Assembly: GCA_951640195.1 (NCBI GenBank)
Contig: OX621167.1
Span: 248,001 to 312,000, forward strand
Origin: Porpolomopsis calyptriformis
Taxonomy: Eukaryota > Basidiomycota > Agaricomycetes > Agaricales > Hygrophoraceae
Reading direction: 5' to 3'
Length of the DNA stretch: 64,000 bases
The notes under the pieces are model-generated. The model did not search any database and was not told where the DNA came from. It was given only the letters and a program-made list of their open reading frames with translations. Positions 9,595-64,000 of the stretch are shown piece after piece; position 1 is the stretch's first letter; the number at the start of each line of letters is the position of its first letter. The translations under genes were made by a program, and so were the position numbers.

Positions 9595-9950
9595 GATAAT
9601 CCAGGTTTGGCACGTGGACCAGGGCGGATGATCGATCGATCGAGGGACATGTGCGTTCCGTCCCTTGCTCCGTTTCCCCAACAAGTCAATAAAAACTCAA
9701 GTGAGATCATCGATCCTGGGACCGATTCCAGCATCAGAAAGATCAATTCGATCACCGCTTACCACCACCACCCCACACGCACCCTTCTTCACTCCCTTTC
9801 CCAAGCACCGGCTCGGATTCACTTTTCAATTCTAAACGGCAATATACACATGTATAGCTATAATGTATATCAATAGAAGAACAAAGGGGAATCCGAAATT
9901 GTATTATCACCACGCACACGTAAGGTACCCATCACATTCTCACCAGCCAT
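9595..9950. other. Downstream flank of the MFS gene
   Basis: No gene is visible. A short GATC repeat (CGATCGATCGATCGA) lies near 9631-9645. The stretch is the 3' side of the minus-strand MFS gene and probably holds its polyadenylation region. Confidence 0.4.
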
Positions 9951-14827: not shown

Positions 14828-15975
14828 CAGGCAGAGAAGACGGAGGGCGAGTCAGAAATTTCAGATGCTTTAAAAGCTCGAGTGAACTACTTGACAAGAA
14901 TCGGAGACAAGGTCCGTCCTCAATCATGTTGGTTAGAGCTCGGCCACATTCATACCTGTACACTGCTCAGGACCGATCGATAGAAGCACAGAAACTTGCA
15001 CTAGAGAAGACCCTAGGCCTCGGTTCTCGGATAGACATCGTACTCACTCTTGTCAGAATCGGTTTTTTCTTCGGCGACCACGAACTTATCTCTACGCAAC
15101 TAAAACAAGCTGACAAGTGCGTTCTTACCTCTCAAAGTCCTCGAATACTTGATGGACTGTCTGTTTGTCACCACAGGTTAATCGAAGCAGGCGGTGACTG
15201 GGATCGACGTAATTGGCTCAAGGTCTACAACGGCCTTCACCTTCTTTCTATCCGCCAGTTCAAACGATGCGGCAAGCTTTTTATCGACACCCTCTCGACA
15301 TTCACCGCCACGGAGCTGCTTTCGTACAATGCATTTGTTGCTCTAACAGTCATTGCGAATACGCTGATGCTTGAAAGGGTTGATTTGAAGAAAAAGGTGA
15401 GAGGATGGGATTTCCCCTCACGAACATATTACCGATATCCCAAGCGAACGTAGATCATTGCTGCACCAGAAGTGACCCAAGCCCTCCCCGAACTCCCCAT
15501 CCTAGGTGACCTGGTCAAAAACCTGTATGACTGTCATTACGACAAGTTCTTTGTTGCACTCGGTGAGTTATTCTCTTTTCCCTCAGTCCCTTATCCTCAA
15601 ACGGTTACAATTTAGCCACACTCGAACAAACCCTGCTCTTACCTTCTCGCTCCTCTCCCCACACGCTCGCTACTACATACGCGAGATGCGTAGCCTCGCC
15701 TACAGCCAGCTGCTGGAATCCTATTGGAGTCTTACACTTGACAGTCTCAGCCGAGCGTTTGGTGTGAGCATAGAGTTTGTGGACAGGTGATTCCCTTTCT
15801 TCGGGTGATGATTCCCTCTCAAAAATTCACTTCCTTCAGTGAATTATCGCGGTTCATCGCAAACGGCCGATTACACTGCTCTATCGACAAAGTGTACGGC
15901 ATCGTGGAGACGACGCGACCGTCGTTGAAGAACGCACAATACGAGGTGGTGGTCAGACAGGGCGATGTTTTGCTA
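14828..15975 (+). pseudogene. RPN7 (26S proteasome lid subunit, PSMD6) fragment
   Basis: Rpn7 is a PCI-domain subunit of the 19S regulatory lid. Exons read EKTEGESEISDALKARVNYL, TRIGDK, RSIEAQKLALEKTLGLGSRI, VLTLVRIGFFFGDHELI, IEAGGDWDRRNWLKVYNGLH, LLSIRQFKRCGKLFIDTLST, FTATELLSYNAFVALTVIA, LPILGDLVKNLYDCHYDKFF, and the PCI part ([56 protein letters not shown]). Introns are GT-AG and mostly of 50-60 nt. The first third of the protein and the last few residues are absent, so both ends are breakpoints. I saw no internal stop. Confidence 0.93.
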
Positions 15976-16300
15976 AATTCGTTGGGCTTGTGCGGCTCCG
16001 AAAGCTGCCACTGTTTTCTGTTGGAGATATGTGAGGATGGTATAACGCGAGTGAAGTAATGGACGGGCCTGGAGGACATCGATGTTCACGGCGTTGATGT
16101 TCACCATGAGAGTGATGAGGGCGTAGGCGATCTGCGGTTGAGAATTCAGGATCGCGCGTGCCGATTCAGGTGTGGTTTTCTGGTGGATTGAACAGTTGGA
16201 TGGAGGTCAAGATATGGAATGGAACGTACCTTGAGCTGAAGGAGGAGCTCAAGCAACTGGTCCTCTGCTAGGTGGTGTGGATTTGGCATGAAGGAGAGCA
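15975..16300 (-). pseudogene. CstF-64/Rna15 hinge-like fragment
   Basis: On the minus strand the exons read MPNPHHLAEDQLLELLLQLK, then TTPESARAILNSQPQIAYAL and ITLMVNINAVNIDVLQ, then [14 protein letters not shown] and a TAG. This resembles the hinge of cleavage stimulation factor subunit 2 (Rna15), which binds its partner in mRNA 3'-end processing. The first intron is a clean 49-50 nt GTACGT...CAG. The second has GC where GT is expected, so it is a GC-AG intron or a decayed one. No RRM is present. It abuts the RPN7 fragment tail to tail. Assignment is from pattern memory and moderate. Confidence 0.5.
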
Positions 16301-16339
16301 TTGAAGGATTTTCTTTTAGGAGTGCTGCTTGTCGTGCTC

Positions 16340-19300
16340 GACGTGTGCCGCTTTAGAAATCCCTTCATTAGAAACACCTTCGTCTTTGAAGCCAGTTCAG
16401 AGTCGTTGTCCACCCAGGAACTCAAAGCTGGCTTGGAGAAGGGCACCGACGAAGTCAAGATTAACACCTTGCAGAAGATTCTCATCTCCACCATCAATGG
16501 AAACCCGCAGGTAAAGTCCCTTTTATTCGTTGGTTGCGGCCATTATGTTCAGTTGGTTGACCCCCGTTAGCCCACTCTCCTTATGCCAATTATTCAATAT
16601 GTCATGCCCTCACGGAACAAAAGGTTGAAAAGATTGCTCCATTTTTATTGGGAAGTATGCCCAAAGTATGACGAGAACGGCAAGCTCAAGCAAGAAATGA
16701 TTCTGGTTGTGTGTGTGTCTCTTCATGTTCTCCAAACTCGCTAGGCTAACTCTATCTGAAGTAATGCCATCCGTAATGACCTCGTGAGTGTTTCGAGTGG
16801 CCATCCATTTTCATCCTATGAAGACACCTTCAGCAACACCCTAATGAATACATTTGCGGCGCGACACTCCGCTTCCTACAAAAAATTTCCAAAGACGCAG
16901 AGCTTCTAGAACCTCTCGTTCCCACTTGTCGTTCATGCCTTGAGCACCGCCACTCGTATGTTCGAAAGAACGCCGTCTTTCCATCTACCGCGAGTTCGAA
17001 AATCTCATACCCGATGCGCCAGAGCTCATGCAGACCTTTCTCGCCGCCGAGACCGATGCAACCTGCAAACGTAACGCGTTCGTATTCCTTGCGCACTGCT
17101 CTATGCCGAAAGCTGTCGAATGGATCTTGAGTCTGTACGATCAGATCACTGGGCTCGAAGAATTGTTACAGATGAGCATCATTGAGGTAATCCGACTGGA
17201 TTGCAAGAACGACTCAGCACATCGGACACGTTATTTTCTCCTTTGAAGATCAGGTCTGACTGACTGAAATATTCTATCAGACTCGCTACATCCGCTGCAT
17301 ACTCGACCTTCTTGGCGCCTCCTCGCATGCTGTCAAGTATGAGGCGGCTACCACTCTCACCACACTCACACAAAATCCCGCGGCAGTGAAAGGTAAGTTC
17401 AACTACGTCTGCGATGGTGAGAAGGTTTACATTGATGTCACTTTAGCCGCTGCTTCATGTCTCGCCAACCTCGTCATCAAAGAGTCGGATAACAATGTTA
17501 AACTTATTGTCTTAGATCGTCTAGATGCGCTTCGTTCAAAACACAGCCCTGTGCTTGACAGTCTTATCATGGACGTCCTTCAGGTTCTCTCAAGGTTCAT
17601 TTTCCCCCCCATCTATTCTTCCAGGTATTCTAAATTGTATCGTTGAGTAGTGCCGACATGGAAGTCCGACTGAAAGCCATTAACATCGCCCTAACTATGA
17701 CTTCGAGTCGGAATGTCAAGGAAGTTGTACTATTCCTCAAGAAACAACTGCAGAAGACCCAGGAGCAGGACTTTGAGAAGGTAAGAGATGTCATCGTTCT
17801 CAGCAATGTACATCTCTAACCGTGTTTGGATGCTAGGCCCCCGAGTATAGGCAACTCCTCATCCAATCCATCCATGTTACTGCCATCAAGTTTTCCGAAG
17901 TAGCGGCGAGCGTTGTGCATGCGTTGATGGAGTTTCTAGGTGACTCAAGCAATCCTTCTGCGCTCGATGTGGTTGCGTTTGTCCGGTGCGTAAATAGCTA
18001 TCAAGTGCCATCACTGACTGAATTTTTTTTTCCCTCAAAAAAGCGAGGTAGTGGAAAGGTTCCCTCACCTACGACAGACAATCTGCGAAAAGTTACACCA
18101 AACCCTTGGAGAGATCAAGTCTGGCAAGGTCTTCCGCGGTGTGCTGTGGATCTTAGGCGAGTACATCGAGAGCGTTGCAGATATCCAGGTGGCAATGCAG
18201 GAGATTAGAAAGGTGTTGGGAGAGATCCCGATATTAGCGTCAGAGCAACGGTTGTTGGATGAAGCGGGTTAGGGTGGCGAGGAAGGCGAGGCTAGGGATG
18301 GAGAGAAGGACAAGGAAAAAACCAGAGCGGAGGGAGGGGGGGGGAGGCCGAGAGTCTTGGCGGATGGGACGTATGCAACTGAGACGGCCTTTACGAGCAC
18401 ATCTGCTGCGCGGTTGGAAGCAGTCAAGGCGGCCGCTAAGCCACCTCTGAGAAGTGAGTCGATCAGAGGTGTAGTATGTTGATCTAGTCCACTGAAATAA
18501 TTTCCCCCTATCCCTTCTTAGCGCTTATCTTGTGTGGAGATTTCTTCACTGGTGCTGTGTTGGCTGCGACGCTGACGAAAATGATTTTACGATTCGCCCG
18601 TCAGACGAAGGATCAGACTGCGGCGAACACGCTGCGTGCTGAAGTTTTTTTTTTTTTTTTGCAAGTTCTTTTTGGGAGGATGGGTGGGAACTGAATTATG
18701 GTCCGACAGGCGATGTTGGTCATGACATCTATCATTCATGTCGGACAGTCCAAGTTTGTGACCGCGCAAATTGACGAGGATTCGAACGAGCGTATCCTCA
18801 ATTGCATACAGACCCTGAGCGAGCTTGAAGAGTCCCCTTCCGTTCGCCAAATTTTCCTGAAGGACACAAAGGCTGCATACTCCAAGATGCTGACTGCACA
18901 GGAAGTTAGTGTACTTTTTCTCATCAACCTGCTTCTTTGCCTGATGCTGAAATTCGGTCGTAGAAGAAGGCGACAGAGAAGAAGGAGGCGGAGTCTACGA
19001 AGGCAGCCGTTGTGCAAGTTGACGACCTCTTGCTGTTGAGACAGTTCTCCAGGAAAACGGCAGATGAGGCGATCGATGTGATGAATTTCGTTCCAGATAC
19101 GAGATCGTCACTAATACGTCTAATTGTAGTACGACGAGGACGTCGGGAGGGCTACTGGGACAGGGGAATCCCACGAAGACTTCATTTCTAATCTCAGCCG
19201 TATTTCTCAGCTCACAGGTTCGTCTCGTTTATTAGTTAAGTAAACAGCCTTACTCAACTTTCTTGAATCAGGCTTTTCTGATCCTATATATGCTGAGGCG

Positions 19301-20253
19301 TACGTCAAGATGCATGGTTTTGATATCATGTTAGGTTGGTTAAGCGATTCGTCCTTTGTCGCTTCTCACGATCATTCTCGCCAGATGTTCTGCTTGTGAA
19401 TCAGACCCCGAATACTCTGCAGAATCTTTGTTTGGACTTTGCGACGTTGGGGGATTTAAAAATTGTTGAACGACCGTCGGTTTATACCATTGCCCCTCAT
19501 GGATTCCAGAGCATAAAAGCTACCATCAAGGTGCGCAAACACATGTCATTTTCTCTGCAAGGCGAAATATCTGATGATTGGTCGGTCTGCTCTGGACACT
19601 GTTTAGGTTTCATCGACCGAGACTGGCGTCATATTTGGCAGCATCCTCTGGGAGGGGAGCAACATGTCAGAAGCCTGCATCATTCTGAATGATATTCACA
19701 TAGACATCATGGACTATATCAAACCCGCGCACTGCAATGAAGCACAGGTAAGTGGAAATTACGTGCACCACATTCGTAAGCTCGAATGATGTTTTTGTCC
19801 ATTCAGTTCCGGAGTATGTGGACTGAATTTGAGTGGGAGAACAGAGTCAATGTGAATACCACGATATCGTGAGTCATTTTTTTTTTTCACCCCTCCGTGG
19901 GCCGTCCTCCGGCTCAGAGTTGTGTTTTGCTTCTCTAGGGATCCCCGAGATTACTTGAAGCATGTCATGAAGGCCACAAATATGTCCTGCTTGACACCGG
20001 AAGGCGCTACCTCGGGAAATTGTGATTTCCTATCGGCGAACATGTATGCACGCAGCTTATTTGGTGAGGTCCACTCTATTTTCTGGCTGCTATCCCTTTT
20101 TTGAATCATGGATGGTTTCTTGTTGCAGGCGAGGATGCTCTCGCGAATTTGAGTATCGAAAAGACGGAGATGGGGACCATCACTGGGCATGTCCGTATTC
20201 GGAGTAAAACGCAAGGAATTGCACTTTCATTGGGTGACCGTATTATGATGGGT
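16340..20253 (+). pseudogene. Beta-COP (coatomer subunit beta), almost complete but broken
   Basis: Beta-COP is a core adaptin-like subunit of the COPI coat for Golgi-ER vesicles. Exons run from STQELKAGLEKGTDEVKI through [94 protein letters not shown]-like and SGKVFRGVLWILGEYIES parts to the appendage ([75 protein letters not shown]). There are about 15 short introns. Defects: a 10-nt deletion near 16979 between two CCATCTAC repeats shifts frame; TAG at 18270-18272. A clear initiator Met is not visible, and the 3' end joins the HECT gene. Confidence 0.92.
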
Positions 20254-42500: not shown

Positions 42501-43252
42501 CGTCGATTCATGGCCAGCGTGACCAATTTCATTCCCAGTGACTCCGCATCGTTCACTATCCATCGTGGAAGAGGGAAATCTTTGCTATCCAGAGCCAGTG
42601 TTGCCTCTTTCCAATCAATGTTGGGGTTGTGCTTTTTGAGCCACGGGAAGCCGAGGATAATATCCGTCTTAGATCCGAGATCGGTCACTTCCAATCGGAT
42701 CCGTTCATTGTGTCCTCCAGGAGCCTCTAACCAAATGTCAATATCGTTCTTGATGGGTCCACCTCGGTTTTCAGATCCATCGGCATTCCGTACGGGGATT
42801 GGGGTTTCCAATCGTGTTAGAGTAAAATTGTGGTGAGTTGCGAAGGATTCGTCCACGAAATTTCCAGAGGCTCCACTATCAACCAGAGCAGTGGCCGGAA
42901 CACGTCGACCAGTGTCGGTAGCTTCAATCCAAACGTCCAAAATGAGTCCGAGATTGCCTTCTTCAAGAGTACCAAGAATTCGAAATAGATTGCATGGAGT
43001 GGTGGTACATTCTTGAGTAGATACGTCCGTAATGGTAGGCGAAGCGTTTGGACTCTTTAAAAACCCTGTTCTTTCAGTTCCTTGACGAGCTGAGCTTTCT
43101 TCTCCTTCGGCCAGCGATCGATCCCACAGTTGTCCACCACTCAAATAGTTTCTTCCGTAGTTGCTGGGGAAATCACCTCGTCGACTCGTTCCGTCTCGAT
43201 ACCTCGAATATTTCGTCCTCGACCTCGCCCTGTGGTTGGTCTTCCTCGTCAT
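39569..43252 (-). CDS. pol of element C (PR-RT-RH-IN-chromodomain)
   Basis: One minus-strand frame of about 1227 codons. Domain order: protease (ALVDSGASGNFVDES), RT with YIDD (FIYIDDVLVCGDD), RNase H (LETDASIIGIAGILSQLHDG), integrase zinc region (SCPACQQNK), core with Asp, Asp and Glu (TVDLIVELP, VISDRAVQF, DGQTERTNQE), and chromodomain (EEYEVESILQHS, KYLVKWKGYPIEEATWED). Two in-frame TGA codons (at 42447-42449 and 41672-41674) replace CGA codons still present in sister elements (46-47 kb and 63.9 kb). Its 5' end overlaps gag by 80 nt in the +1 frame. Confidence 0.95.
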
Positions 43253-44549
43253 TGTCCGGCAGGGGCACTACTCGATGGGCGCGCTGTCGAAGAAGAGGCG
43301 AGAGAGAGGAATTTGGACACTTGTTCACCCAATGACCTGGCTCTCCGCAGCGATAGCAGTTGCCTCGCGGAACGCGCGATATTGATGATGAGGAAGTTGT
43401 CTCCTGTTTGACAGGAGCAGAGGAGGGAGTTCGGGTCATCGTTCGAGCCACGGTCTCCCTGGGAGTATAGTAGTTACTCCGGGGAGCGGCACGACGCTCA
43501 AGTGCAAGTTCGAGACGTTGTCGATTGAAGACGGAAGCTTTTCGCTTCCAAGCGTTGAGGGTGGCAGGGATGGGATCAAGGGCATAGATTTTTTCGAGAA
43601 TTCCGGGATTGAGGCTGTTCCGGTAGAAAACTTTGAGCGCGTCGTCATTGAATCCAGTTTCGTCCGCAAGAGCTCCGAATCGTATGTTATAATTGTCCAC
43701 AGTAGAAAGTCCTTGGGTTACCTTTTGAATTTTGACCTGCGCTGTCGCTCTCGCATCAACGTCTCCAAAACATTCCTCCAGTTCTTCCATAAAATCCTCG
43801 TAATCGGCTCCAACCCATTGAGTATGTTTGAATTCTTGAGTCTGCTGTCGGGCCCATGATTGGGCGACACCGATCTTCATAAATGACAAGACATAAGTTA
43901 TTTTCTGTCTGTCAGACCATTGACTGTCGTCAAGGACTAGACGACAAGCTTGGATGAAGTTAAGACATTTGGCTGCAGACCCATCGTATTCATCGGGTTT
44001 GGCGATCTTGATGGAGGGGGGAGCAGGTTGTTGAGGCAAAGGAGGCTGTTGGTGTGGCGGAGGAGGTTGAGGTTGTTGTTGCTGGAGCTGGGTGATTAGC
44101 TGTTGTTGTTGGGTGATGGTTTGTTCAAGTTGGTGAACAGTGGCCACCAAGGTCGCAATATCAATGGTAGGGGGGTTGGTGGGGGCATTGGTGGACGTTC
44201 CTGACATATTGGTAGATGTCGGCTGTTGTGGGGTTGTTGGAGCTGTTGGTGTTGGTGTAGGTGTCACAGAGGAAAGTTGGGAGTAGAGAGAACCGTATCG
44301 TCCTGGTGGGGTAGCAGTTCGTTGATGAACTGGTCTTGTTGTTGGGGCTGAAGATGAAGAGAAGAGTCCTCTTGTTCTCGATCGAGTTCGTGGTCCTAGA
44401 GGAGCAGGAGCAGGGGTGGGAGTAGCTAATGTTTCTTCAAGAGCTGAAGAAAAGGATGGTTCTTGATCTCGAATTGTAGCTGAAAAAGTTGATCTTGAGA
44501 GAGGATCTTCGTATTGTTCTTCAACATCTGAGTTGTCGGTAGAAGCCAG
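43173..44549 (-). CDS. gag of element C
   Basis: From the first ATG (44207) Gag has 344 residues: a Gln/Pro-rich segment (QQQQLITQLQQQQPQPPPP), a capsid-like region (AKCLNFIQACRLVLDDSQWS, YVLSFMKIGVAQSWARQQTQ), and a zinc knuckle CYRCGEPGHWVNKC (CX2CX4HX4C). The same frame stays open upstream to about 44560 with protein-like sequence conserved in element F but without any ATG; the annotated start at 44549 is a CTG followed by G. Initiation at that CTG is an inference. It ends at 43173, overlapping pol. Confidence 0.85.
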   Translation of the reverse strand: MASTDNSDVEEQYEDPLSRSTFSATIRDQEPSFSSALEETLATPTPAPAPLGPRTRSRTRGLFSSSSAPTTRPVHQRTATPPGRYGSLYSQLSSVTPTPTPTAPTTPQQPTSTNMSGTSTNAPTNPPTIDIATLVATVHQLEQTITQQQQLITQLQQQQPQPPPPHQQPPLPQQPAPPSIKIAKPDEYDGSAAKCLNFIQACRLVLDDSQWSDRQKITYVLSFMKIGVAQSWARQQTQEFKHTQWVGADYEDFMEELEECFGDVDARATAQVKIQKVTQGLSTVDNYNIRFGALADETGFNDDALKVFYRNSLNPGILEKIYALDPIPATLNAWKRKASVFNRQRLELALERRAAPRSNYYTPRETVARTMTRTPSSAPVKQETTSSSSISRVPRGNCYRCGEPGHWVNKCPNSSLSPLLRQRAHRVVPLPDNDEEDQPQGEVEDEIFEVSRRNESTR

Positions 44550-44649: not shown

Positions 44650-45049
44650 TGTTATAAACCGGTTGTTCGGAACGCGTTTTACTTCGGGTGTTCTGTCCCA
44701 AGAGATATAAAGGATGGTTCCAAGTCCTTGTTATGAGTAGGCTAACGAGGAATCAGACTTAAGGTCTGATATGTACAGAAGTACTCTTTATATACTGACT
44801 ACTTATCTGCGTGAGTCAGTGCGACATAACATGAGGTAGAGATAAGAATGAGTCATTGTGATCGATGACGAATCATAAAGGGGTTGAAACATAACGGAAA
44901 TGAAGTGTATCCGCATATAGGTAAAGTAATGGGGAATCCCAGAGAAAGGCAATGGGGAATCCCGGTAATAAGTGGGGGGAATCCCAAGATAAGAGATAGG
45001 TTTGCATACGATAAGATAAAGAGAATGAAAGAAAATTACGACCGTGACA
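44650..45049 (-). repeat. LTR of element C (400 bp, 5' LTR)
   Basis: Minus strand TGTCACGG...TTATAACA. It contains the TATA box (CAGTATATAAAG), three GGGATTCCCC units upstream of it, and the expected RNA start (AAGTCTGATTC). Followed by the duplication GTAGT at 45050. Confidence 0.96.
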
Positions 45050-46949
45050 GTAGTCCTGACAGCTTCGAGGGGAAGTTTTTGTTCTGTTGACAAGCAGGGC
45101 AGGATCGAACGTAGTTGGTGATGTCTTGTGGGGCACCATCCCAAATAAAGTTACAAAGAACGAGTTCCTTCGTCTTCTCAATGCCAGGGTGGGCAGCGTG
45201 GGGGTAGGCGTGGGACAGTCGTATAATGTCTGTGCGCAAAGATACTTCCTCTGGCACCACTATCTGACCTTCAACATCGCATACAAGCCCATCAGCTTGG
45301 GTCCAAGTGAGTGAGGCATCCTCGAGTTTATCTTGGATCTTCTGTGGGAGCAGGATTTTAAAGCGTAATCTAGAAAGAAGACTTGAATTTGACAACTTGA
45401 CAATTGAATTAATCCATCGGTCACGCGCTATCAGAACTTCATTCTCCACGTTGGCCTTGACGTTGGGCAAATAATCGGGGCACCTGGACAGGCTGTCAGC
45501 TTTGTTCTTCCTACCTGGAATGTATTCGATTTTGAATCCGAACCTGGACAGATACTCAGACCAACGAGTTTGGTGATTCGATAGGCGAAGATTCTTGGAG
45601 AAGTACCACAAAGCCAAACTGTCCGTTCTAATGAGAATATCGTGTCTTGCTCCTTCAAGAAGATGGCGCCATTGCTTAAAGGAATCAATGATCACCAGGA
45701 GTTCCAGATCGTGGGTAGGGTAGTTCTTTTCAGCAGGGGAGGTAGATCTTGAGTGATAGCCAACAGGTTTCCAGTGTCCGTCGTGAAGCTGGGAGAGTAT
45801 TCCTGCGATTCCAATGATGGAAGCATCAGTTTCTAGGCAATAAGGGAGATCGCGGTCAGGAATATGAAGAACGGGTGTGTTCGTTAAGAGGGACTTGATG
45901 TTGTCGAAGGCTTCTTGTCTTCGAGGAGTCCATTCCCACACAGTTTCATTGTGCAAGAGTTCGTAGAGAGGGGTAGCGACTTTGGAGAAACCTTTGATAT
46001 ATCTTCGCCAAAAGTTTGCACTGCCTAAGAAGGATTGGAGTTGTTTCACCGTTTCTGGAATAGGCCAAGACATGATAGCGTCGACTTTCTTCGGATTAGT
46101 GATGATTCATCCTTTGGATAGGACGACTCCGAGATAAATGACTTCTTCTTTCTCGAATTGGCATTTGATGGGTTTACACGAGAGTCTGTGTTTCTTCATG
46201 ATATCTAGAGTTCTGAAGGTCCAGTGTCGCAATTCCTGTAAATCGTTTCCACAAACAAGCACGTCATCGATATAGATAAAAATGCTTCCAGAGTCCAGGA
46301 CTTCTTTGAATCTTGTGTCGATCATCCGTTGAAAGGTGGCTGGAGAGTTCCGCAAACCAAAGAACATGACGGTGGGCTCAAAGGCACCTGCTTCAGTGAT
46401 GAAAGCGGCTTTCCATTCGTCGCCTTCCTTGATCCTGACGTTGTTGAATCCCCATCGGATATCCATGACTGTGAACAGGGATGCTGTTAGGAGTTTAGGT
46501 CGTTGGAGTATTTGATGAAGGAGGGGAAGAGGATAGTGATCAGGGACCGTGTGTTCATTGAGGTAGCGATAGTCTTCGATAGGACGTAAACCAGCGTTCT
46601 TACCTTTAGCATTTACTTCTTCGGCTTTCTTTCCAAAGAAGAACGGAGAGACTTGTTTCAACTTAGAAGTTCGTATTCATCCAGTAGACAGGTTTTTGTC
46701 GATGAACTTGTGTAAATGATCCATTTCAAGAGGGGACATTGCGTATTTCGCGCCTTTGACTGGTCTGAAGGTTTCATCCAGTTCTATGGTGTGGTCGAAT
46801 TCCGAATGCGGTGGAAGGCGGTCGAAGGATTCTTTGGCAAAGACGCTAGAGTAGTCTTTCCAGTATACCTCCGGTACAAACTTTCGCATATCTTCTTCCA
46901 CCGTGCTAGCTCGGGATTCATCCGACTTCGATACACGTCGATTCATGGC
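45050..46949 (-). pseudogene. pol of element B, RT-RNase H-integrase N-terminus
   Basis: Minus-strand continuation of element B between insertions C and H. RT box YIDD is intact (FIYIDDVLVCGND). In-frame TGA codons at about 46107 and 46677 match CGA in other copies. It joins 37112-38162 on the left and 56680-57380 on the right. Confidence 0.9.
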
Positions 46950-46954
46950 TAGCG
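46950..46954. other. Target-site duplication of element H, left (TAGCG)
   Basis: TAGCG precedes the 5' LTR, and TAGTG at 56680-56684 follows the 3' LTR. The single difference is C to T in a CG dinucleotide. The uninterrupted site in sister elements reads GCCAGCGTGACCAA. Confidence 0.85.
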
Positions 46955-47149
46955 TGTAACAGATATGTTACATACAGCCACCATGCTGTGTTTGTACATA
47001 TTTGTACCGGATACCTTAAGTACCGGTTACGCTTAGGTAAACAATAAGTTTACATCCCACTCCCGCTTATACCAGATTGCCCCAATACATTGGTTCTGTG
47101 CATATCCTGGTATTGAGCAAAGTGTGATAACTTATCCCCACTCCTTACA
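46955..47149 (+). repeat. 5' LTR of element H (195 bp)
   Basis: TGTAACA...CTTACA. It differs from the 3' LTR at two positions only, both CpG in the 3' copy and CpA here. It opens with a hairpin (TGTAACA gata TGTTACA, 46955-46972) and holds GTAAAC aataa GTTTAC at 47037-47053, GTACA/TGTAC, and CCAAT ac ATTGG inside a wider ATACCAG/CTGGTAT pair. No clear TATA box. The 190 bp after it, up to the ATG at 47340, is leader, starting CTTTTTTGCAC; I see no complement of that in the LTR. Confidence 0.95.
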
Positions 47150-47339
47150 CTTTTTTGCACATCCACAAGAAATTGTGGAATATCTGTGTAAATCAACTTT
47201 GACTGAAAAAGCTTCCCTGTCGATGACACGGCCTCCGTCAATGACGAAGACCCACATGAAGACTTGAATCACGCGGGCCTCAACGGCGTGCAACTCGCAA
47301 GGCAAACCACCTGACGACGACGACCCAGGAACGGCGCAG

Positions 47340-50300
47340 ATGAGCGCCATCGCTGATTCTGGCATGCCACGTCACGACCTCAGCGACACTCAAAGACGGC
47401 CAGTGTCGGCCGTACATTCACCCCAGAGTGAACGAAGACATCGTGCCAACTTAGATGATGGCAGTTCCCAACTTACGGAAAGAGAGGAGTCATCGCCGAC
47501 GACAAGTCGGCGTGTAAGTATGACAATCGACCCAATGCTCAATACGTTAATACACACCCTCAATGAGGGTCAAACGAGGACAGGAGTCCCTTCCTCGTCA
47601 CGAAACCTGAATGAACGAGAATACGTTCATCAAATGTTAAATCTATTACAGCGCAATGAAATAGACGATCAATATGAGCGACGAGACCTGTCGCCCACAC
47701 CCAGTCAGATGTCGACTGTGACATGTACTAAGAGACGAAAAGAAAAGCACCCGCAGAACCGTGAGGCACTGAGCAAGACGCTCTCTGACGTAGTTGATAG
47801 GGTCAATGCACTCGTTCAGACGAGAATGGGCGGAATTAGTTGTGATGAATTCATGAGGCTAGCCAATGACCTTAACAAGGTTATGGTGCATAAGAATAGC
47901 GACAACACCTGTCGAAATAAGATGGATACAACCATTCGTCCAGATAGGGATGAGGAAGACGAACTTCTGCAACAAGCGGAAGCTGAGCTTCGCCATCCTC
48001 GACAAGAAGACGAGGCAAGTTCCGTCTATCAGAGACAGCGAGCCGCAGCTGATCGAGTCGATAAACATCGACATGGAAGTAAGAAAAGGAACGACCGGAA
48101 CAGATCATTTGAACAAGAAAACGAAGCAGCCTTGAGACCGGTAACTTTCACACTCAAGGATAGAGTGGCCATCCAAAGGTTGAGAAATGGCGACATCCGT
48201 GAAACCGGAAGATCCGGCCTGGACGATCAAGGCATCGCCTTCGACGCTTCTGGAGAAACCATAGATTTATGGGCAGAAGGACAAAATGAGTGGTCCAAAT
48301 GAGACCGCAGGCCGCCATCAGATAGAAGGCGGTATCACCAGTCAGATGACGGTGATTCAGACGACCCAGATCAAGGATCGTCTTCTGATGATGAGTCCGA
48401 TCGTAGCGAAACGACGGACACTGGAAGTGACCAGTCAAGGAATCGACCATCCGACGCTACCAGACATGGTAGTAGGAGAACGTCTAAACAGACGTCAAAA
48501 ACAACAAAATGACACAGAAGTTGTAGCCGTAAACCTCATAGATATGAGGGGAAAGATCGACGCTCTGATTACCTCAGAGATATTCATCATAAATATCATA
48601 AATTAATTGATGAACAAGTGGGCAAACCACTGAAAGGAAACCTATCCGGTCTCCAAACCTCATCTCCTAAACTGCCTACTCCAAAAGAGTATAGCGGTGA
48701 GGAGGACATCGAGAAATTCGATGGGTGGCTTCAATCATTCTTGAGATGGTTGAAATTGTCCAACTACACTGGACCCAATGCTGAGCCAGAGCGTATCGCT
48801 TTAACGGCTATTTATCTTGCGGACAAAGCAAGACAATGGTTCAACGACAATGTCGACAGCATGTCTAGGCAGAAACGCTGATGGACATTTAAAGAGGTCA
48901 TAACCGGATTGTACAACTGGTTCATTCATGAGGCATCCATACAGGATGCTACAACAAAATTCTATTCGAGAAAGTACACCACGGAAGGTGGTGTCTCAGG
49001 ATTCTTCTACGACCTTGAGAGGTACGCAGGTCATATGATACACGAGCCTGACTCGTATACGTTTAAAACCCAATTGCTATTGGGTCTACCTGCAAGGATA
49101 ACCGATGCAGTTGTCCAGAAAGGCGTTACCACTGAAACCTCGTCACTTGAGACGATCCTCAAAGTTGCTCGACGTGTTGAAGAGAGCATTCGAATAAAGC
49201 ATCGCTATGATGAGCGACGCAAGGCGACATCTGGAGTAACCAGTCAGCCGAAAGCAACCGCGAATATGCGGCCACTAACAAATCAGACGACGAATAAAGA
49301 GACGCTGTCATACTCGAAGCCAGTGTACAATAAGTACGCTAACAAAAGAGGTCCATACCGACCATATAGACCGACTGACAACCATCAGCCTTACAGACTA
49401 CCGCCAAATAGACCTAGCGGTTCTGGAAGTAAACCGACGCCACAGGCGCCGGCACATAATAGGAACCAGACGGGATCGTCTGGTGTGAAATGCTACGCAT
49501 GTGGCAAATTTGGCCATTATGCGACTGATCTGAAATGTCCCAATTTTGGGAAACCTCGAATGGCAGCAATCCAAGAAGGGGAGGATGCATTCAAAACGGT
49601 AGCAGAAGACGCTATTGACGAGAACGACCAAGAGGCAGACAAGCCTCACCACAACTACAGAATCGTAGTTGAGGAAGAAGAGGACGATCCTTTACAAGGA
49701 TCGCAGTATACATCACAAGGTGAAGAGTATCACCTCCAAGAATATGATGAGTATGAGGAGTACTCACAAGAGGAAGACGACAATAACATTGTCAATGAAC
49801 AGATATGTTCAATCCGAGAAACGAGTAACCATACTCGTGAATTGATAGCGTCTATAAACGACGAACAAGTGTTCAAAGAGGACACTCAACCCAAACCATG
49901 GATTCGTAAGTCCAGCAGACAGCAGGACCGCCCAGCGAAACTGAGCATGAAAGTAAGGCCTTTAGTGGCTCGCATGGAATTAAACGGCCTCATAGCTATT
50001 GTAATGTTCGATACAGGCAGCACTTCTGATGCCATTAGCCCAGAATTTGCGAGAGTCGCAAATTTGAAGATATATCAGTTGAAGGACCCTGTTCCGATCC
50101 AACTAGGATGCCGCGGTAGCAGATCGCAGATTAACTACGGTACTTACTGTCCCGTGCAATACGAAAGTATCGCTAAGAAATACTATTTTGATATTGTAAA
50201 TATCGACAGATTCGACGCTATAATTGGCATCGGATTCATGCGTGAATTCGAAATTATGCTAGAGCCTAGCGTGAACCAAATAATGGTCCGCAGGGTAGCC

Positions 50301-53300
50301 GCTCCTGCTCTAACTGAAGGGGAGGAAAATGATGAAATCATGCGCAGACAATCGCTGCGGCGAACTGAACAAAGGTCTGCTGAATGACTAGCAGACACAG
50401 AACCGAAAGGTTCTGCAGGGAAGACGTCCAGACAGGACGTCATAGAAACAGACAAACCAAAAGAGTTTGTTGAGGAGTTTTCAAGAAACAGGTGTTCAGA
50501 CGTGAACACAAAGAAAATAAAAGAGAGTACCCCTACCGGGTCTAATGAAAAGATGCTACTGAGTGTAGCTCGAATTGTTCAACCGAACGAAAGGACCAAA
50601 ACGTCCCTAACAAATGAGGACAGACCTCGCCTTCGAGCCAAATGGATCGAAGCGTGCCAAGATATTATGCACGGAGTACCTGAGGAATTACCTCCGGTAC
50701 GTGGTGTCAATCACCACATACCTCTTATCGACGAAGATAAGAAGTACAATTATTACCTTCCGAGATGTCCGGACTCGCTAAAGCCTCAGCTTATGGCGAA
50801 GATTGCACAGTACACGCGCACTGGATGGTGGGAATCGGTGCAAACCGATCAAGCAGCTCTGATGCTGTGCATTCCAAAGAAGAATGGCACTCTACGGATG
50901 CCAATTGATTGTCGTAAATGCAACGACAATACTTTGAAGGACATTACGCCCTTTCCTGACCAAGACCAGATCAGATATGATGTGGCCGGCGGAACAATAA
51001 GGTCAAAAATAGACCTATCAGATGCTTATGAGCAGGTACAGACAGTACCTGAAGGCGTGCATAAAAGCGCGTTTGCAACAATATATGGCACATACGTGAG
51101 CCATACAATGCAGATAGGAGACTGCAACACACCCGCTACGTTTCAGTGGGTAATGACAATGATCTTTCGAGACTTTATCGGCATATTCATGCATGCCTAT
51201 CTCGACGATCTATTCATCTATAGTGCTTCCGTCTCGGAGCACGAAAAACACTTGGGTCTCATGTTTGGTAAACTACGAGAATACAAGTTCTACCTCCAAG
51301 AGGAGAAGTGCGAACTGTACGCCGATGTGATCGACTGTCTAGGTCATAAGATAGACAACAAAGGGCTACACGCAGACGCCGACAAAATGGCGAGAATACG
51401 CAATTGGCGACAGCCGCGCAATTACAACGATGTCCAGAAATTTATAGGACTCGTGCAATATCTGGCGCATTTCCTGCCAGATATCTCAAGTTATACAGGG
51501 CCGTTAGCAGCCATGACAGCAAACAGGCAACCGTTCGTGTGGAGACCAATCCACGATAAATGCTTTGAAACAATAAAGCAGATATGCTGCTGGACACCTA
51601 TACTAGTGCCGATACGTCACAAGAAAGATGAACCCATATGGGTCATCTGCGATGCCTCAATACATGGCGTCGGCGCAATGTATGGACAAGGTCCTACCTG
51701 GCAAACCTGCAGACCAGCAGGATTTATGTCGCGAAAGTTCACGGATGCTCAACAGAATTACCGAACATTCGAGCATGAAACGATTGCGATACTCGAAGCC
51801 CTCCTTAAATGGGAGGACAAATTGATAGGATATCGGGTTCACGTTGTGACTGACCATCAAGCTCTTGAGTTCTTCAAGACGCAAAGATGCCTGTCTAGCT
51901 GACAAGCCCGTTGGATGGAATACCTGTCAAGATTTGACTTTGACATAACATATGTCAAAGGGCAACTGAATAAAGTTGCCGATGCATTATCACGTTATTA
52001 TGAAAGTGATACATGGTATGATGCTCATCCTATGAGTGAATACGTAGATGTAGATATACGTCTAGACCCAGAAAAGGATGATCTCCCTTGGGATCATCTA
52101 AACAAAATTAATACTGGAGCCATCGAAATGAAGGCTATCCAGGTCGTCGAAGACATTCAACGATGCCGAAGTAATCGTCTTCTCGAAAGAGAAGAAGATA
52201 GAGATGCGCAAGCGGCAGCGCTCGCGCTAGTTCCGATTCCAGAAATGGAACCAATGAAAAAATTGAGATCATCCCCGGACGATCCAACAATATTCCAATC
52301 CCGTAAACAGGGAGAGAACTTGCGCGCTCGTATAGAGCGTGATGAATCACTGACAGTAGCGATTTGCGGAGGATACATATCTGACGCATTATTCAGCAAG
52401 GTTCTTGAGAACCCTGATCACCATAAGGCATTCACTGTCTGTGAAGGCCTGATTTGGTCCAAGAATTTGGGGGGAGAGGAAGTACTATGTATCCCATCTG
52501 CAAAGATGGGGCAAGAATCAATCTTTGGCCTGATAATTGATCAAGCACACTCAATTGTGGGCCATTTTGGTCCGCAACGTACCACCGACTACGTAAGACG
52601 ATGGTACTGGTGGCCTAAGATATTTAGCCACATTAAACAATTCTGCAAGTCGTGTCAGACTTGTCAAACGTCGAAAGACAATATGCAGCGCCCGACAGGA
52701 CTGTTGCATTCATTACCCATACCCATGAAACCGTGGCAATCAATAGGAATGGACTTTATTGGTCCGTTTCCCGAAATTGACGGGTACAATTACCTTTGGG
52801 TAGTCATTTGTCGAATGACATCAATGATCCACCTAATTCCGGTGAATACTAAAACGAAAGTGTCAGAGCTTTCGTGGATCTACTTAAAAGAAGTAGTAAG
52901 GCTTCACGGCCTTCCCGAAAGTATAGTCTCAGACAGAGACTTGAAATTTACCTCCAAATGGTGGAGCGAACTTCACAGGCTCTTAGGAGCTAAACTATTG
53001 ATGTCTACATCTTTCCATCCTCAGACGGATGGCGCAACTGAACGAGCTAATCGTTCAATAGGTCAAATCCTCTGAGCAACCGTAAGCTCAGATCAACGAG
53101 ACTGGATCGCAAAGATCCTGATGACCAAATTCGCGATTAACGCGAGTATTAGTGAAGCTACAGGCTTCGCCCTGTTCGAGCTGAACGGAGCATATATGCC
53201 TGCTATGATTAAGCAGGTAGAAAATACTGCTGAGACACCGCCAGGTGTCCAAGCATTTGCTCAACAAGGGCTGCAGAATCTGGCAGCTGCTCACGACGCG

Positions 53301-53843
53301 ATCATTGCGCATCGCGTATTTCAAAGACACTACACTAATCAGCGTAGAAGGGAAGAACCGTCGATTAAAGTAAACGACTTCGTGTACCTATCGACTAAGA
53401 ACCTTAAACTACCGCAAGGTAGAGCAGGGAAACTACTGCCAAGGTTCATTGGGCCGTACAAAGTAGTACGGGCCTTTCCAAATGAATCCAACTATGAGTT
53501 GGAACTCCCCAACGAGCTCGCGAAGCGACAGATTCATCCGCGCTTTCACATAAATTTGCTGCGTCCGCACCATCCGAATGATGATGCGTTATTCCCTAAC
53601 CGAGTGTCAGTAGATGCTTACAACTTCAGTGAACCACTTAAAACCGAATGGTTAGTCGACGAAATAGTCGGCCATAGGTGGGACAACCGAAAACTCGAGT
53701 TGGAGGTTCGTTGGAACCTCGGAGACACGACTTGGGAGCCCATCTCATCGTGTAAAGAGCTTAGTGCTCTAGATAAATATCTAACCCTAATGGGTGTAGA
53801 TACCCCTCTTCAACTGCCGAGATGGCCAGTTAAGAGGCACTGA
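47340..53843 (+). CDS. gag-pol of element H, one frame with in-frame TGA codons
   Basis: About 2168 codons in a single frame from ATG 47340. Gag: charged N-terminal part, capsid-like region (48660-49200; YSGEEDIEKFDGWLQSFLRW), zinc knuckle CYACGKFGHYATDLKC (CX2CX4HX6C, an unusual last spacing). Pol: protease DTGS (50010-50021), RT YLDD (51198-51209), RNase H (ICDASIHGVGAMYGQ), integrase zinc region, Asp/Asp/Glu core with 35 residues between the last two (SDRDLKF ... DGATERAN), divergent chromodomain (EWLVDEIVGHRW, EVRWNLGDTTWEP). Six TGA codons interrupt it: 48300, 48510, 48879, 50385, 51900 and 53073. At 51900 and 53073 conserved motifs expect Arg, so CGA became TGA. No frameshift. Confidence 0.93.
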
Positions 53844-54082
53844 ATGCTGACTGCACTCAGAGCCTTGAGGTGTGCCGACAAGCACACCTCGTATGCGCGC
53901 TAAACTGAGCGCGACCAATAATTGCCTTAATCGGCAATCAATGGACCAGACATACCCGGTCCGGTGGCGGACTCACCCCAATTGGGGTAATTAGAGGCAC
54001 CAAAATGATGCCACAAGTCTAAGCGTGACTTGTATAAAAGCACGACAAACAAAAAACAACGGTAGAAAAATTTCTACCCCAT
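53844..54082 (+). promoter_or_regulatory. Inter-ORF hairpin ladder with a TATA box
   Basis: Non-coding gap between the two ORFs made almost wholly of successive inverted repeats: GAGGTGTGC/GCACACCTC (53867-53890), CGCGCT/AGCGCG (53896-53913), ATTGCC/GGCAAT (53931-53948), ACCCCAATTGGGGT (53975-53988), ACAAGTC/GACTTGT (54013-54033), GGTAGAAA/TTTCTACC (54061-54078). TATAAAA at 54033-54039 lies 44 nt before the second ATG, so a separate promoter for ORF2 is possible. Confidence 0.75.
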
Positions 54083-56344
54083 ATGATGATGTCGAACAAA
54101 AATAGCACGCCCACAAGCGTAAGAACAAGCCCCCACCCCGTAGACCCGAGACCACCGGAAATGGTGGGAGATGACAGGGATCAGCTAATGGCTCGTCCCG
54201 ACGAAGTCATCAGACCCCCACGCCAGACACGGCATGGGCCCTCTTCTGAAGGGGAGAGAGAGCACCGCTCTCGACAAAACACAAGTAACTCGTCAGAGTT
54301 ACCCCCGAAAACATGGGTGTGTAACAGCACCATCAACGTCGCGATACACTCCAGTCACCGGAGGTGTAAAGTCTGCAAAGACTATGTAATGCATGTTGTT
54401 GAAGACAGCGTGTACCAAGACGCCTCGTTGAAAGAGGCATTCAATGACTGCCGCAAGGCACATCAAGAGGAACTCATAGCAGAGATCCGAAACCTAACCG
54501 TCTCACTCGAGAAGGCTCAAGATGATGGTGATTACTATCGCGCTCATTATGAACAAACTCAAGACGAGCTTTATAAAGCCAATCAGCTTATAGCCAAGCT
54601 GAACAAGTCTAACGACACTAGCAAGGCTGAATTGCTAGGAAAGCGCAAGCGCTCCCGTACCGAGGGATCGCATTCGTGATCGTCAGAATACACAAGGGCG
54701 GCCAGCCCTGTGACCAAGAACCCCTCTGCCCAAGACAAGGGCAAGGAAAAAGAAACAGACGAGGAGGCTCGACGAAGAGCCGATATGGAACATTTCGATC
54801 TGTACTTGGACGACAAGTTGGCGGGCTGTGGCCCGATGTTCAGAGACCTCGACAAGGAGGATAACGCGTACATCAAGAGATGCTTCCCTCAAATCATTCG
54901 AGAGAATGAGGAACTGAAGGCTCGCCTTCAACCTACCTCGTATATCGAGTTCCCAAACCTCCCAGATCCAGGAGTGAATAATCAATCTGGCCCTAGTGGC
55001 GAGATGATCAAACGGCGCAAGAAGCGCTCGACCATTACTGCTTGGCCCAGCATCCCTGCTGGGGCCCACTACTCACCTGTTGACCAGACCGTCCGGGTTG
55101 GCGCTAGCGCTGAAGCAGCGCGACGAAACGAAGCGATGGGACTACCCCCTCCGCGTGGAACTCGATCTGCGGATGACTGCGGATACCCAGTCAACGCGTG
55201 CCAATGGCGCGCTCTATTCATTCAAGCCCAAGAATCGGGCAATAATGAGGCTCTCAAACTCGCGCGATCGTTCGTCACGACAGCGCAGGCAACTCCTCGA
55301 GAGAGCAGAATGGATGCTCAATGCGTCTCATTAATCCATTGGAGAGTTCCCGCCTGGGCTTCAGGTGACTCCACCGACGCACCTGTACAGGTGCCGACTT
55401 CTTCTGTGCCTGGACGGATTAACCCGTCTCAGCCAACCGCCACGAGTTCCCCGGAAGAGTGGGCTCGTTGGTTCTACATAAACCGCTGTGCCACGCACCC
55501 TGGAGTGCGCTTAGAACGAGATGGCAGCATTTCGCTGCGAAGCCTCTGTGGGATGCTTTTGGTTAGTCGACACAAACCAAAGTCACCTAAGACCCGTGCT
55601 CCCGCCAGATCATCGACAGACGCCGACCAAATACAGTCGCAATACATCAGAGCGGCGGCCCTCCTGTTTGGAATGCCTAGCCGCTATCACTCATTTGTGA
55701 CGGGATCGAACCTGTCCATTGCGGAACCCACCAGAGAACCAGCCCAGTACTCTGGATCATCCAATGTCACAGAACAATCCCTCGTTCCGTTCTTCGCCGG
55801 ACAAGGCGTTACGTTTGAACAGGCGGATGACGCCTTTGTCTATGCCTTCCAATGGCTCGAGGACACCCTCCAGGGTAATGTCTCAGACTTATCCTCCCTC
55901 GAGACGTACAGAGAGTCTGTACGTACTACACTGGCAAGGAATGGCATTCCTTCGTCACTTTGTGATGGAAATGTCACATGGTTCCCGGATGGACGTCCTC
56001 GCCGATGTCCCCAGTCTCATATCTCGTCTAATGACGAGTCTGTCACCCCATCCACGGGCCTGATCACCCAAGACGTGTTTGATGCATCTAACTCGTTCAC
56101 TCGGCGTGGACAAATCATGTACACGCTCACCGAGCGTGGACCACCCCATGGCTGGGACTCATCCCGCACGTCGCGACGCCGATCACGGCGTGATTCACAA
56201 GACAGCGCTGCGCCACCAGGTAGCGATAGCGAGCAAGTCTCACTTGGCTCGCCGATCCCTGAACCTGAGCCAGCTTCGCTTCAGGAACGTATTGATAGTA
56301 CGTCAGAGATACCTGACGTCCCGATGGACTACGGACGAATGTAG
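54083..56344 (+). CDS. Second long ORF of element H, unknown function
   Basis: 753 codons with one internal TGA at 54677-54679 (again where CGA would continue the frame), ending at TAG 56342-56344. The N-terminal 200 residues are basic and Pro-rich, then a Cys pair (CKVCKDYVMHVVEDSVYQD) and a long helical segment (EELIAEIRNLTVSLEKAQDD, YYRAHYEQTQDELYKANQLI) likely to be coiled coil. Next comes KRKRSR, nuclear-signal-like. The C-terminal 540 residues include an ordered region (WARWFYINRCATHPGVRLER, AALLFGMPSRYHSFVTGSNL, FVYAFQWLEDTLQGNVSDL). No membrane segment, so not env-like. I recognise no family. Confidence 0.75.
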
Positions 56345-56472
56345 TTGTCGCCACAGTTGTTTTACTACGGCGTTTATTTTCTATTTCTCTTAGTTCTTTC
56401 TATGTAGTTTATAGACTGTTTTATGTGTATTCTGCCTGGCTATCAGGCTTAACTTACCCCGGCAGTTAAGCC

Positions 56473-56484
56473 GAAGGGGGAGGA
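56473..56484 (+). other. Polypurine tract of element H
   Basis: GAAGGGGGAGGA directly precedes the 3' LTR, the expected plus-strand primer. Confidence 0.9.
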
Positions 56485-56679
56485 TGTAACAGATATGTTA
56501 CATACAGCCACCGTGCTGTGTTTGTACGTATTTGTACCGGATACCTTAAGTACCGGTTACGCTTAGGTAAACAATAAGTTTACATCCCACTCCCGCTTAT
56601 ACCAGATTGCCCCAATACATTGGTTCTGTGCATATCCTGGTATTGAGCAAAGTGTGATAACTTATCCCCACTCCTTACA
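56485..56679 (+). repeat. 3' LTR of element H (195 bp)
   Basis: Same as 46955-47149 apart from two CpG/CpA differences. Followed by TAGTG, the right target duplication. Confidence 0.95.
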
Positions 56680-57380
56680 TAGTGTGACCAATTCCATTCC
56701 CGGTGACTCCACATCGTTCACTATCCATCGTGGTAGAGGGAAATCTTTGCTATCCAGAGCCAGTGTTGCCTCTTTCCAATCGATGTTGGGGTTGTGCTTT
56801 TTGAGCCATGGGAAGCTGAGGATAATATCTGTCTTAGATCTGAGATCGGTCACTTCCAATTGGATCCGTTCATTGTGTCCTCCGGGAGCCTCTAACCAAA
56901 TATCAATATCATTCTCGATGGGTCCACCTCGGTTTTCAGATCTATCAGCATTCCATACGGGGATTGGAGCTTCCAATCGTGTTAGAGTAAAATTGTGGCG
57001 AGTTACGAAGGATTCATCCATGAAATTTCCAGAGGCTCCACTATCAACCAGAGCAGTGGCTGGAACACGTCGACCAGTGTCGGTAGCTTCAATCCAAACG
57101 TCCAAAATGAGTCTGAGATTGCCTTCTTCAAGAGTACCAAGAATTCGAAATAGATTGCATGGAGTGGTGGTACATTCTTGAGTAGATACGTCCGTAACGG
57201 TAGGCAAAGTGTTCAGACTCCCTAAAAACCCTGTTCTTTCAGTTCCTTGATGAGCTGAGCTTTTCTCTCCTTCGGCCAGCGATCGATCCCGCAGTTGTCC
57301 ACCACTCGAATAGTTTCCTCCATAGTGGCTGGGGAAACCACTTCATCGACTCGTTCCGTCTCGACACCTCAAATACTTCG
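56680..57380 (-). pseudogene. pol of element B, N-terminal part (protease)
   Basis: Minus-strand protease region (TDVSTQECTTTPCNLFRILG, ALVDSGASGNFMDES, GHNERIQLEVTDLRSKTDII). It ends on the left at the insertion point of element H and overlaps gag on the right, as in element C. Confidence 0.88.
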
Positions 57381-62405: not shown

Positions 62406-64000
62406 ATGAGGAAGACCAAACACAGGGCAAGGTCAAGGATGGAACATACGAAATATCGAGATGGAATGAGTCAATGAGGTGGTTTCCCTGGCTACTATGG
62501 AGGAAACTATTCAAGTGGTGGACAACTGCGGGATCGATCACTGGCCAAAAGAGAGAAAAGCTCAGCTCATCAAGGAACTGAAAGAACAGGGTTTTTAAGG
62601 AGTCCGAACGTTTCGCCTGCCATTACGGACGTATCTACTCAAGAATGTATCATCACTCCATGCAATCTATTTCGAATTCTTGGTACTCTTGAAGAAGGCA
62701 ATCTTGGACTCATCTTGGACATTTGGATTGAAGCTACCGACACTGGTCGACATGTTCCAGCCACTGCTCTGGTTGATAGTGGAGCCTCTGGAAATTTCGT
62801 GGACGAATCTTTCGTAACTCGCCACAATTTTACTCTAACACAATTGGAAACCCCAATCCCCATATGAAATGCCGATGGATCTGAAAACTGAGGTGGACCC
62901 ATTGAGAATGATATTGATATTTGGTTAGAGGCTCCTGGAGGACACAATGAACAGATCCAATTGGAAGTGACCGATCTCAGATCTAAGATGGATATTATCC
63001 TCAGCTTCCTGTGGCTCAAAAGGCACAATCCCAACATCGATTGGAAAGAGGCAACACTGGCTCTGGATAGCAAAGAAATCCCTCTTCCACAATGGATAGT
63101 CGGCATATCAAAGTCAGATGAATCCCAAGCCAGCACGGTGGAAGAAGATATGCGAAAGTTTGTACCGGAGGTATACTGGAAAGACTATTCTAGTGTCTTT
63201 GCCAAAGAATCCTTTGACTGCCTTCCACTGCATTCGGAGTTTGACCATGCCATTAAACTAGACGAAACCTTCAAACCAACCAAAGGTGCGAAATATGCAA
63301 TGTCCCCTCTTGAGATGGATCACCTATACAAGTTCATCAATGAAAACTTGTCTACTGGACGAATACAAACTTCCAAGTTGAAACAAGTCTCTCCATTCTT
63401 CTTTGGGAAGAAAGCTGAATCAGTGAACGCTAAAGGCAAAAGCGCTGGCTTACGTCCTATCGAAGATTATCACTACCTTAATAAACACACAGTCCCTGAC
63501 CATTATCCCCTCCCCCTTCTTCACCAAATACTCTAACGACCAAAACTCCTAACAGCATCCTTATTTACAGTCATGGATATCCGATGGGGATTCAACAATG
63601 TCAGGATCAAGGAAGGTGATGAATGGAAAGCCGCTTTCATTACCGAAACAGGCGCCTTTGAACCCACCATAATGTTCTTTGGTTTGCAGAACTCTCCAGC
63701 CACCTTTCAATGGATGATTGACATGAGGTTCAAAGAAGTTCTGGATTCTGGAAACGTTTTTATCTATATTGACGATGTGCTAGTTTGTGGAGATGATTTA
63801 CAGGAACTGCGATACTGGACCTTCAAAACTCTGGATATCATGAAGAAACACGGACTTTCGTGTAAACCTGTCAAATGCCAGTTCAAGAAGGAAGAAGTTA
63901 TTTATCTTGGAGTCATTCTATCCAAAGGACGAATCACCACTAATCCAAAGAAAGTCAACATGATCATGTCCTGGCCTGTTCCAGAAATGTGAAACAACTC
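62380..64000 (+). pseudogene. pol of element F (protease and RT), partial
   Basis: Protease (ALVDSGASGNFVDESF), then RT with YIDD (FIYIDDVLVCGDD). Stops: TGA near 62865 and 62890, TAA at 63534-63536. The window ends just after MSWPVPEM, before RNase H. Confidence 0.88.

Follow-up and report, generated by a model that had tools for sequence, protein, structure and literature searches.

A Ty3/gypsy retrotransposon of Porpolomopsis calyptriformis rich in short hairpins along its whole length

Structure of element H

Element H is a long terminal repeat (LTR) retrotransposon of the Ty3/gypsy group and a member of a multicopy family in the basidiomycete Porpolomopsis calyptriformis. It occupies positions 46955–56679, on the plus strand, of the 64,000-nt stretch of DNA analyzed here (assembly GCA_951640195.1, contig OX621167.1, positions 248,001–312,000), which is referred to as the window. 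From end to end, coding regions included, H is crowded with short hairpins, a feature first noticed in a sequence-only reading of the window. The number, geometry, strand preference and covariation of these hairpins suggest that the sense RNA of the H family is probably under selection for structure.

H carries two LTRs, a target-site duplication and a polypurine tract. The 5′ LTR (195 nt, TGTAAC...TTACA; 46955–47149) and the 3′ LTR (56485–56679) form a direct repeat of 99% identity, and the polypurine tract AAGGGGGAGGA (56474–56484) lies directly before the 3′ LTR. The left target-site duplicate TAGCG (46950–46954) and the right one, TAGTG (56680–56684), differ by a single C/T change. At least 40 genome matches to the LTR were found, including H's own two. 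A search with the LTR complement for a self-priming site gave an 8-nt match only, about 30 nt inside, and no clear primer site; tRNA complements near the 5′ LTR were checked by eye. Just inside the 5′ LTR, near the expected primer-binding site, there is a 7-bp hairpin with a GAAA loop (47162–47179).

The order of domains according to Pfam is gag, protease, reverse transcriptase (RT), RNase H and integrase, as in Ty3/gypsy elements. ORF1 (47340–48302; 320 amino acids), an open reading frame (ORF) in the gag-pol frame, is without a Pfam match and has 93 matches in the genome, pieces counted. The following region (48618–50387), whose frame is interrupted in H, encodes a Ty3 capsid-like gag with a zinc knuckle and a protease (RVP_2); the gag capsid match is weak, lying under the Pfam curated cut-off. 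RT and RNase H are encoded at 50502–51902 (RVT_1, 1.2e-22; RT_RNaseH, 1.2e-22), and the integrase, also in an interrupted frame, at 51915–53843 (H2C2 and rve, the latter under the curated cut-off). The integrase end is Tf2-1-like, with an SH3 match and no Chromo match at E 1e-3. Downstream of the integrase, H has an extra 3′ reading frame (54083–56344), a single frame interrupted into pieces of 198 and 544 amino acids (54083–54679 and 54710–56344). Copies of it exist in the genome. It has no Pfam match, and a protein search for homologues of the 544-amino-acid piece, limited to the 7996 candidates with the most shared words out of about 5.8 billion proteins, yielded none at E 1e-3.

Excess of short hairpins in element H

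Hairpins were counted as maximal perfect stems with loops of 2–12 nt, and expectations were taken from 20 first-order Markov sequences. H contains 104 stems of at least 6 bp (18.7±4.4 expected), 49 of at least 7 bp (4.4±2.2) and 11 of at least 8 bp (1.1±1.0), corresponding to one stem per 94 nt against about one per 520 nt by chance. The hairpin profile per kb rises at 47 kb and falls at 57 kb, tracking H, and none of the 20 bins of 500 nt in H is without a hairpin of 6 bp or more. In a 20-kb control (window positions 1–20000), 53 stems were counted against 45±6 expected. The sequence-only reading had listed 20 inverted repeats as perfect; all are present within 1 nt of the places given and 19 are indeed perfect over at least 6 bp, two of these 19 being 1 bp longer than first given, whereas that at 50676–50700 has an interior mismatch and a longest perfect run of 5. 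The dense cluster it described within gag (49465–49838) is borne out, with nine stems of at least 6 bp where 0.75±0.70 are expected. No Rfam family matched H at the gathering thresholds.

The coding regions share this excess. In eight ORF pieces of H, 61 stems (6 bp or more, loops of 3–8 nt) were found, well beyond the range of 100 shuffled sequences that keep protein, codons and dinucleotides (15.1±3.3, highest 26), whereas for control loops of 20–25 nt the count was 13 against 9.9±3.0. Shuffling therefore removes roughly three in four coding hairpins. Folding weakens as well: the minimum folding energy difference (MFED) relative to codon and dinucleotide shuffles was 13.5–30.1% in all five ORF pieces of H tested, with z scores of –6.3 to –8.7. 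Since the same shuffles cut the coding hairpins and weaken the folding, codon choice in H is bent toward local stems, as had been suspected from the sequence. For ten other ORFs in the window (30 shuffles each), stem counts were mostly near the shuffled values, the highest being that of 43173–44267, gag of a neighboring gypsy element (5 vs. 1.4±1.1). MFED values of three control ORFs were –3.5, –0.4 and 8.4%, the last one again for 43173–44267 (z –2.5).

Loops are in excess at lengths of about 3–13 nt, with a peak at 4–6 nt, little excess at 0–1 nt and none past about 20 nt; this range indicates single-strand geometry. When stems with loops of 3–8 nt are sorted by exact length, observed and expected numbers are 83 and 34.7 at 5 bp, 41 and 8.7 at 6 bp, and 33 and 2.3 at 7 bp, followed by 4, 3 and 1 stems at 8, 9 and 10 bp. 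The probability of one further pair is 0.5 at 5–6 bp and 0.2 at 7 bp, with 0.25 expected by chance; past 7 bp the estimate has a basis of eight stems of 8 bp or more. The enriched class is hairpins of single-strand geometry that seldom exceed 7 bp. A 9-bp hairpin was read in the RT region (51458–51484).

Folding energy and strand preference

In 350-nt fragments compared with dinucleotide shuffles, the MFED of H is 24.4% for the sense strand and 19.8% for the antisense strand, far above the values of two other regions of the window (0.3 and –0.1%). In 100-nt windows, mean z scores are –2.00 in sense and –1.72 in antisense (difference –0.28±0.09), and they are near 0 in three other regions.

The loops of H are rich in A (43% vs. 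30% overall) and have oriented ends. Among 165 stems of 5 bp or more, 34 have loops that begin with G and end with A (G...A), compared with 23 of 293 long-loop control stems; A...G ends occur in 10 of the same 165 stems, and T...C ends, the antisense image of G...A, in 5. GNNA loops make up 15 of 39 tetraloops in H and 4 of 76 elsewhere in the window, and GNRA loops 9 and 3 of the same totals. The loop-closing pair is C-G in 69 stems and G-C in 28, whereas long-loop stems have 80 and 54. G...A loop ends, GNNA and GNRA loops and C-G closing pairs are stabilizing features of RNA hairpins, and these oriented preferences point to the sense RNA.

Conservation and covariation in the H family

A search of the whole 33.5-Mb assembly (17 contigs) with the RT of H gave 93 matches, pieces included; the closer ones are 78–95% identical, H itself apart, and are followed by other families at about 30%. 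Stem counts were 23–42 in the top 30 RT loci of the H family among these 93 matches (H included), against 4.4–8.7 expected. Family copies (L009–L038) differ mostly by transitions, with C-to-T and G-to-A changes chiefly at CpG and then at CpA/TpG, as expected of methylation-linked decay or decay like that of repeat-induced point mutation. Such CpG-centered decay adds mismatches of both the A·C and the G·T class. Because copies differ mainly in this way, covariation was analyzed in diverged old pieces of the same genome with 62–86% identity (L051, L053+L059, the 3′ part of L025, L057, L065, L063, L064 and L055). Nine segments entered the count; L054 was aligned and left out.

In these diverged relatives, hairpins occupy the same alignment columns and carry matched changes. 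The hairpin ACCAGACG-GGAT-CGTCTGGT (49465–49484) reads ACCAGATA-GATA-TATCTGGT in L051, with two compensatory pairs. In CGATCCTT-TAC-AAGGATCG (49685–49703), both partners of four of the eight pairs have been replaced in L051 with pairing kept, and one pair is A·C; within this hairpin, four of six encoded residues differ in L051, as translated by eye. TCTTGC-GGACAAA-GCAAGA (48815–48833) has CCTCAC/GTGAGG as its L051 counterpart, with three of six pairs compensatory. Similarly, CACGCTC-ACC-GAGCGTG (56122–56138) corresponds to CATGCTT-GCT-AAGCATG in L025 (two compensatory pairs), and TCAGCTT-ATAGCC-AAGCTGA (54583–54602) has one compensatory pair in L053.

Overall, double changes that keep pairing account for 40 of 130 changed stem pairs, compared with 64 of 447 in long-loop stems (p=5e-5 with pairs treated as independent) and 1244 of 12132 in an isolated-pair control. 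In the reverse direction, the counts are 36/107 and 93/693 (p=1.5e-6, likewise). Double changes of any kind were seen in 50 of 130 stem pairs and 84 of 447 controls. One-sided mismatches of the transversion type are depleted in stems (10/130 vs. 96/447), and those of the transition type outnumber them, relative to controls. In six of the nine segments (62–84% identity), 30 of 49 hairpins are kept with at most one non-Watson–Crick pair, and several hairpins of H are broken in individual relatives.

Strong folding is also found in the diverged pieces, with sense and antisense MFED values of 16.9 and 11.1% for L051, 23.8 and 20.2% for L058, 15.1 and 11.9% for L057, and 17.9 and 8.7% for L053+L059. 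Sense folding thus exceeds antisense folding in four of four pieces by MFED and in three of four by z score. L058 is the stretch adjoining L051; it has no DNA alignment to H and contains a weak ORF1 match (34%). Protein relatives of H were found in metagenomes and in named basidiomycetes (including Peniophora, Pleurotus and Trametes), with 76–77% identity for the closest.

Other gypsy elements and the surroundings of element H

The folding excess of other gypsy loci in this genome is nil to moderate. MFED values are 0.4 and 4.6% for L060 and L061 and 2.4–4.0% for L040, L041 and L043; L048 and L049 show moderate sense values of 8.1–9.2%, above the 3% threshold that is used for viral genomes (see below). 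Stems are about twice as numerous as expected in L039–L044 (70 vs. 35) and 1.5-fold in L045–L050 (56 vs. 37), where L046 includes a piece of an H copy. Viral contigs yielded no relatives, whether scanned with the RT protein or with alignment A1. A scan of genome contigs found one relative of 32% identity (L056) in a metagenome-bin record titled Rhizonema, a gypsy contig whose moderate sense-strand MFED of 7.8% likewise exceeds the 3% threshold. Structure may vary by gypsy family.

H is probably nested inside another gypsy element, because minus-strand gypsy ORFs lie on both of its sides: 45036–46073 on the left (RNase H and the zinc-binding part of an integrase) and 56662–57207 on the right (protease). 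There are also long inverted repeats (e.g., 46052–46933 and 63106–63987), which suggest a second, opposite copy of the surrounding element toward the right end of the window.

Probable selection for structure in the sense RNA

The proposal of the sequence-only reading that H resembles RNA viruses with ordered RNA structure is backed by the sense-oriented loop preferences, the folding energies and the covariation. The reading preferred here, with a probability of roughly 0.75, is that the sense RNA of the H family is under selection for structure. The full-length sense RNA would be selected for local folding into short hairpins all along its length, typically with stems of 5–7 bp and loops of 3–8 nt, partly by means of synonymous codons.

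Several observations weigh against this reading. The diverged, decayed relatives show no preference for G...A loop ends (14/179 vs. 48/559 in their long-loop stems), and in L057 the antisense z score is the stronger one (–2.46 vs. –2.08 in sense). Among stems with one interior mismatch common to at least 70% of copies, A·C and G·T numbers are 27 and 23 for 6-pair stems, 19 and 11 for 7-pair stems, and 14 and 3 for 8-pair stems, whereas selection on the sense RNA should favor G·U. The A·C mismatches could stem from G-to-A pressure on a sense strand rich in A. In one-sided changes between relatives, the ratio of G·T to A·C is only slightly higher than in controls (1.33 vs. 0.89–0.95; in the reverse direction 0.80 vs. 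0.64–0.65). When both sides are changed, the share that keeps pairing is hardly above that of long-loop controls in one direction (40/50 vs. 64/84; the reverse direction gives 36/41 vs. 93/148), so the covariation signal lies in the frequency of joint changes. The relatives overlap and some columns of H are counted more than once, which strains the independence assumed in the p values. Finally, the hairpins are spread over the three codon phases without preference (27, 22 and 18).

Alternative origins of the hairpins have to be weighed against the same data. Chance, composition or low complexity would have to rest on the normal background, about 3 stems per kb, and almost no weight can be given to it, since codon and dinucleotide shuffles, long-loop controls, neighboring sequence and two other gypsy loci all refute it. 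A mutational drive without selection, in which reverse transcription or DNA synthesis switches templates between imperfect inverted repeats and so equalizes their arms, had also been considered in the sequence-only reading. It would fit the perfect Watson–Crick stems without G·U preference and would naturally yield double changes by arm conversion, and the process has been described in yeast coding DNA (PMC8604942). Nevertheless, the loops show no inversion between relatives (identity 0.70 in direct and 0.19 in inverted comparison, 212 loop bases), one-sided changes are equal in the two arms (30 vs. 32), stem extension drops to about chance past 7 bp (judged from eight longer stems), and the oriented G...A ends, GNNA loops and C-G closing pairs are not predicted. 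A palindrome-perfecting process is accordingly not favored and is regarded as improbable.

Other selective explanations differ in what is selected. The hairpins could be dispersed packaging signals, i.e., many sequence-specific binding sites for Gag along the RNA, consistent with their presence in every 500-nt bin and with the A-rich loops. However, 82 hairpins have no single loop motif in common, the commonest (GATA, GAAA and AGACA) occurring three times each, and the packaging signals of Ty1 and Ty3 are confined to restricted regions, making this explanation unlikely. A feature of the DNA, such as palindromes bound by dimeric proteins or single-stranded cDNA folded into hairpins, is suggested by the better-than-shuffled folding of both strands and by the tolerance of both A·C and G·T mismatches. 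The broad range of loop lengths with a minimum near 3 nt is unlike a site with a fixed spacer, and folding and loop type favor the sense strand; a role at the DNA level is thus very improbable.

Selection on the sense RNA leaves more than one possible purpose. The stems of H hairpins would be too short for Dicer-type enzymes. The benefit of hairpins formed in the cell would lie in a shielded and more compact genomic RNA: short stems would escape Dicer-like enzymes and still prevent the RNA from entering long sense–antisense duplexes, and they would hinder the binding of guide RNAs, while a chain of small hairpins would be a compact form for packaging into particles. As for the choice between packaging and escape from silencing, which we infer, shielding from RNA silencing is tentatively placed foremost, packaging or compaction is a possible purpose given a lower rating, and some other purpose is rather unlikely. 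The genomic RNA might then be an array of about 100 largely position-conserved hairpins capped near 7 bp, which would constrain the sequence beyond the protein in places and would be maximally folded yet stay under the length at which enzymes detect double-stranded RNA; this more specific picture is offered with some reserve.

Relation to known systems and significance

RNA structure that spans whole genomes has precedents among RNA viruses, where its purpose is disputed. H works like the genome-scale ordered RNA structure (GORS) of these viruses, without being filed as a member. In both, structure extends throughout the coding genome, folding energy exceeds that of sequence-order-shuffled controls, and the hairpins of H are spread along the whole element instead of forming discrete elements. 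GORS is assigned above an MFED of 3% (PMC3950689), and both the 24.4% of H and the 13.5–30.1% of its ORF pieces exceed this value, although shuffling methods differ and the figures are only roughly comparable. For comparison, published values are about 15% for SARS-CoV-2, 7.5–10.7% for hepatitis C virus and 23.4% for a deltacoronavirus, described there as the top value on record for vertebrate RNA viruses (PMC7642675). Unlike such viruses, H is an integrated LTR retrotransposon and not a positive-strand RNA genome, and it is built of separate short hairpins whose length is limited. Stem positions are largely kept in H, whereas in coronaviruses they are described as poorly conserved (PMC7642675).

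Ty3 is related to H and its genomic RNA is folded, stable structured regions making up to 30% of Ty1 and Ty3 RNA by selective 2′-hydroxyl acylation analyzed by primer extension (SHAPE); in the portion of that study drawn on, no excess of perfect hairpins over shuffles is reported, and its main text does not mention covariation (PMC11381356). Perfect inverted repeats within coding genes, with protein function kept, are also described for mitochondrial genes of Nematomorpha, but those repeats are far longer (up to 284 bp) and belong to mitochondrial DNA (PMC6649704). Template-switch homogenization in yeast likewise involves perfect short inverted repeats in coding DNA; spacer inversions accompany the repeats there (PMC8604942), and H has no sign of them. 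No comparably pervasive structure in an LTR retrotransposon was found in the titles and opening lines of abstracts of the literature searched, most subscription papers being outside its scope.

H thus combines a folding excess at least of the order seen in RNA viruses with many copies per genome, and the seven further gypsy loci tested in this genome, whose excess is small to moderate (MFED 0.4–9.2%), can be used as a contrast. In a tractable fungus, this would allow asking whether pervasive local structure shields an RNA from silencing, aids its packaging, or serves something else.

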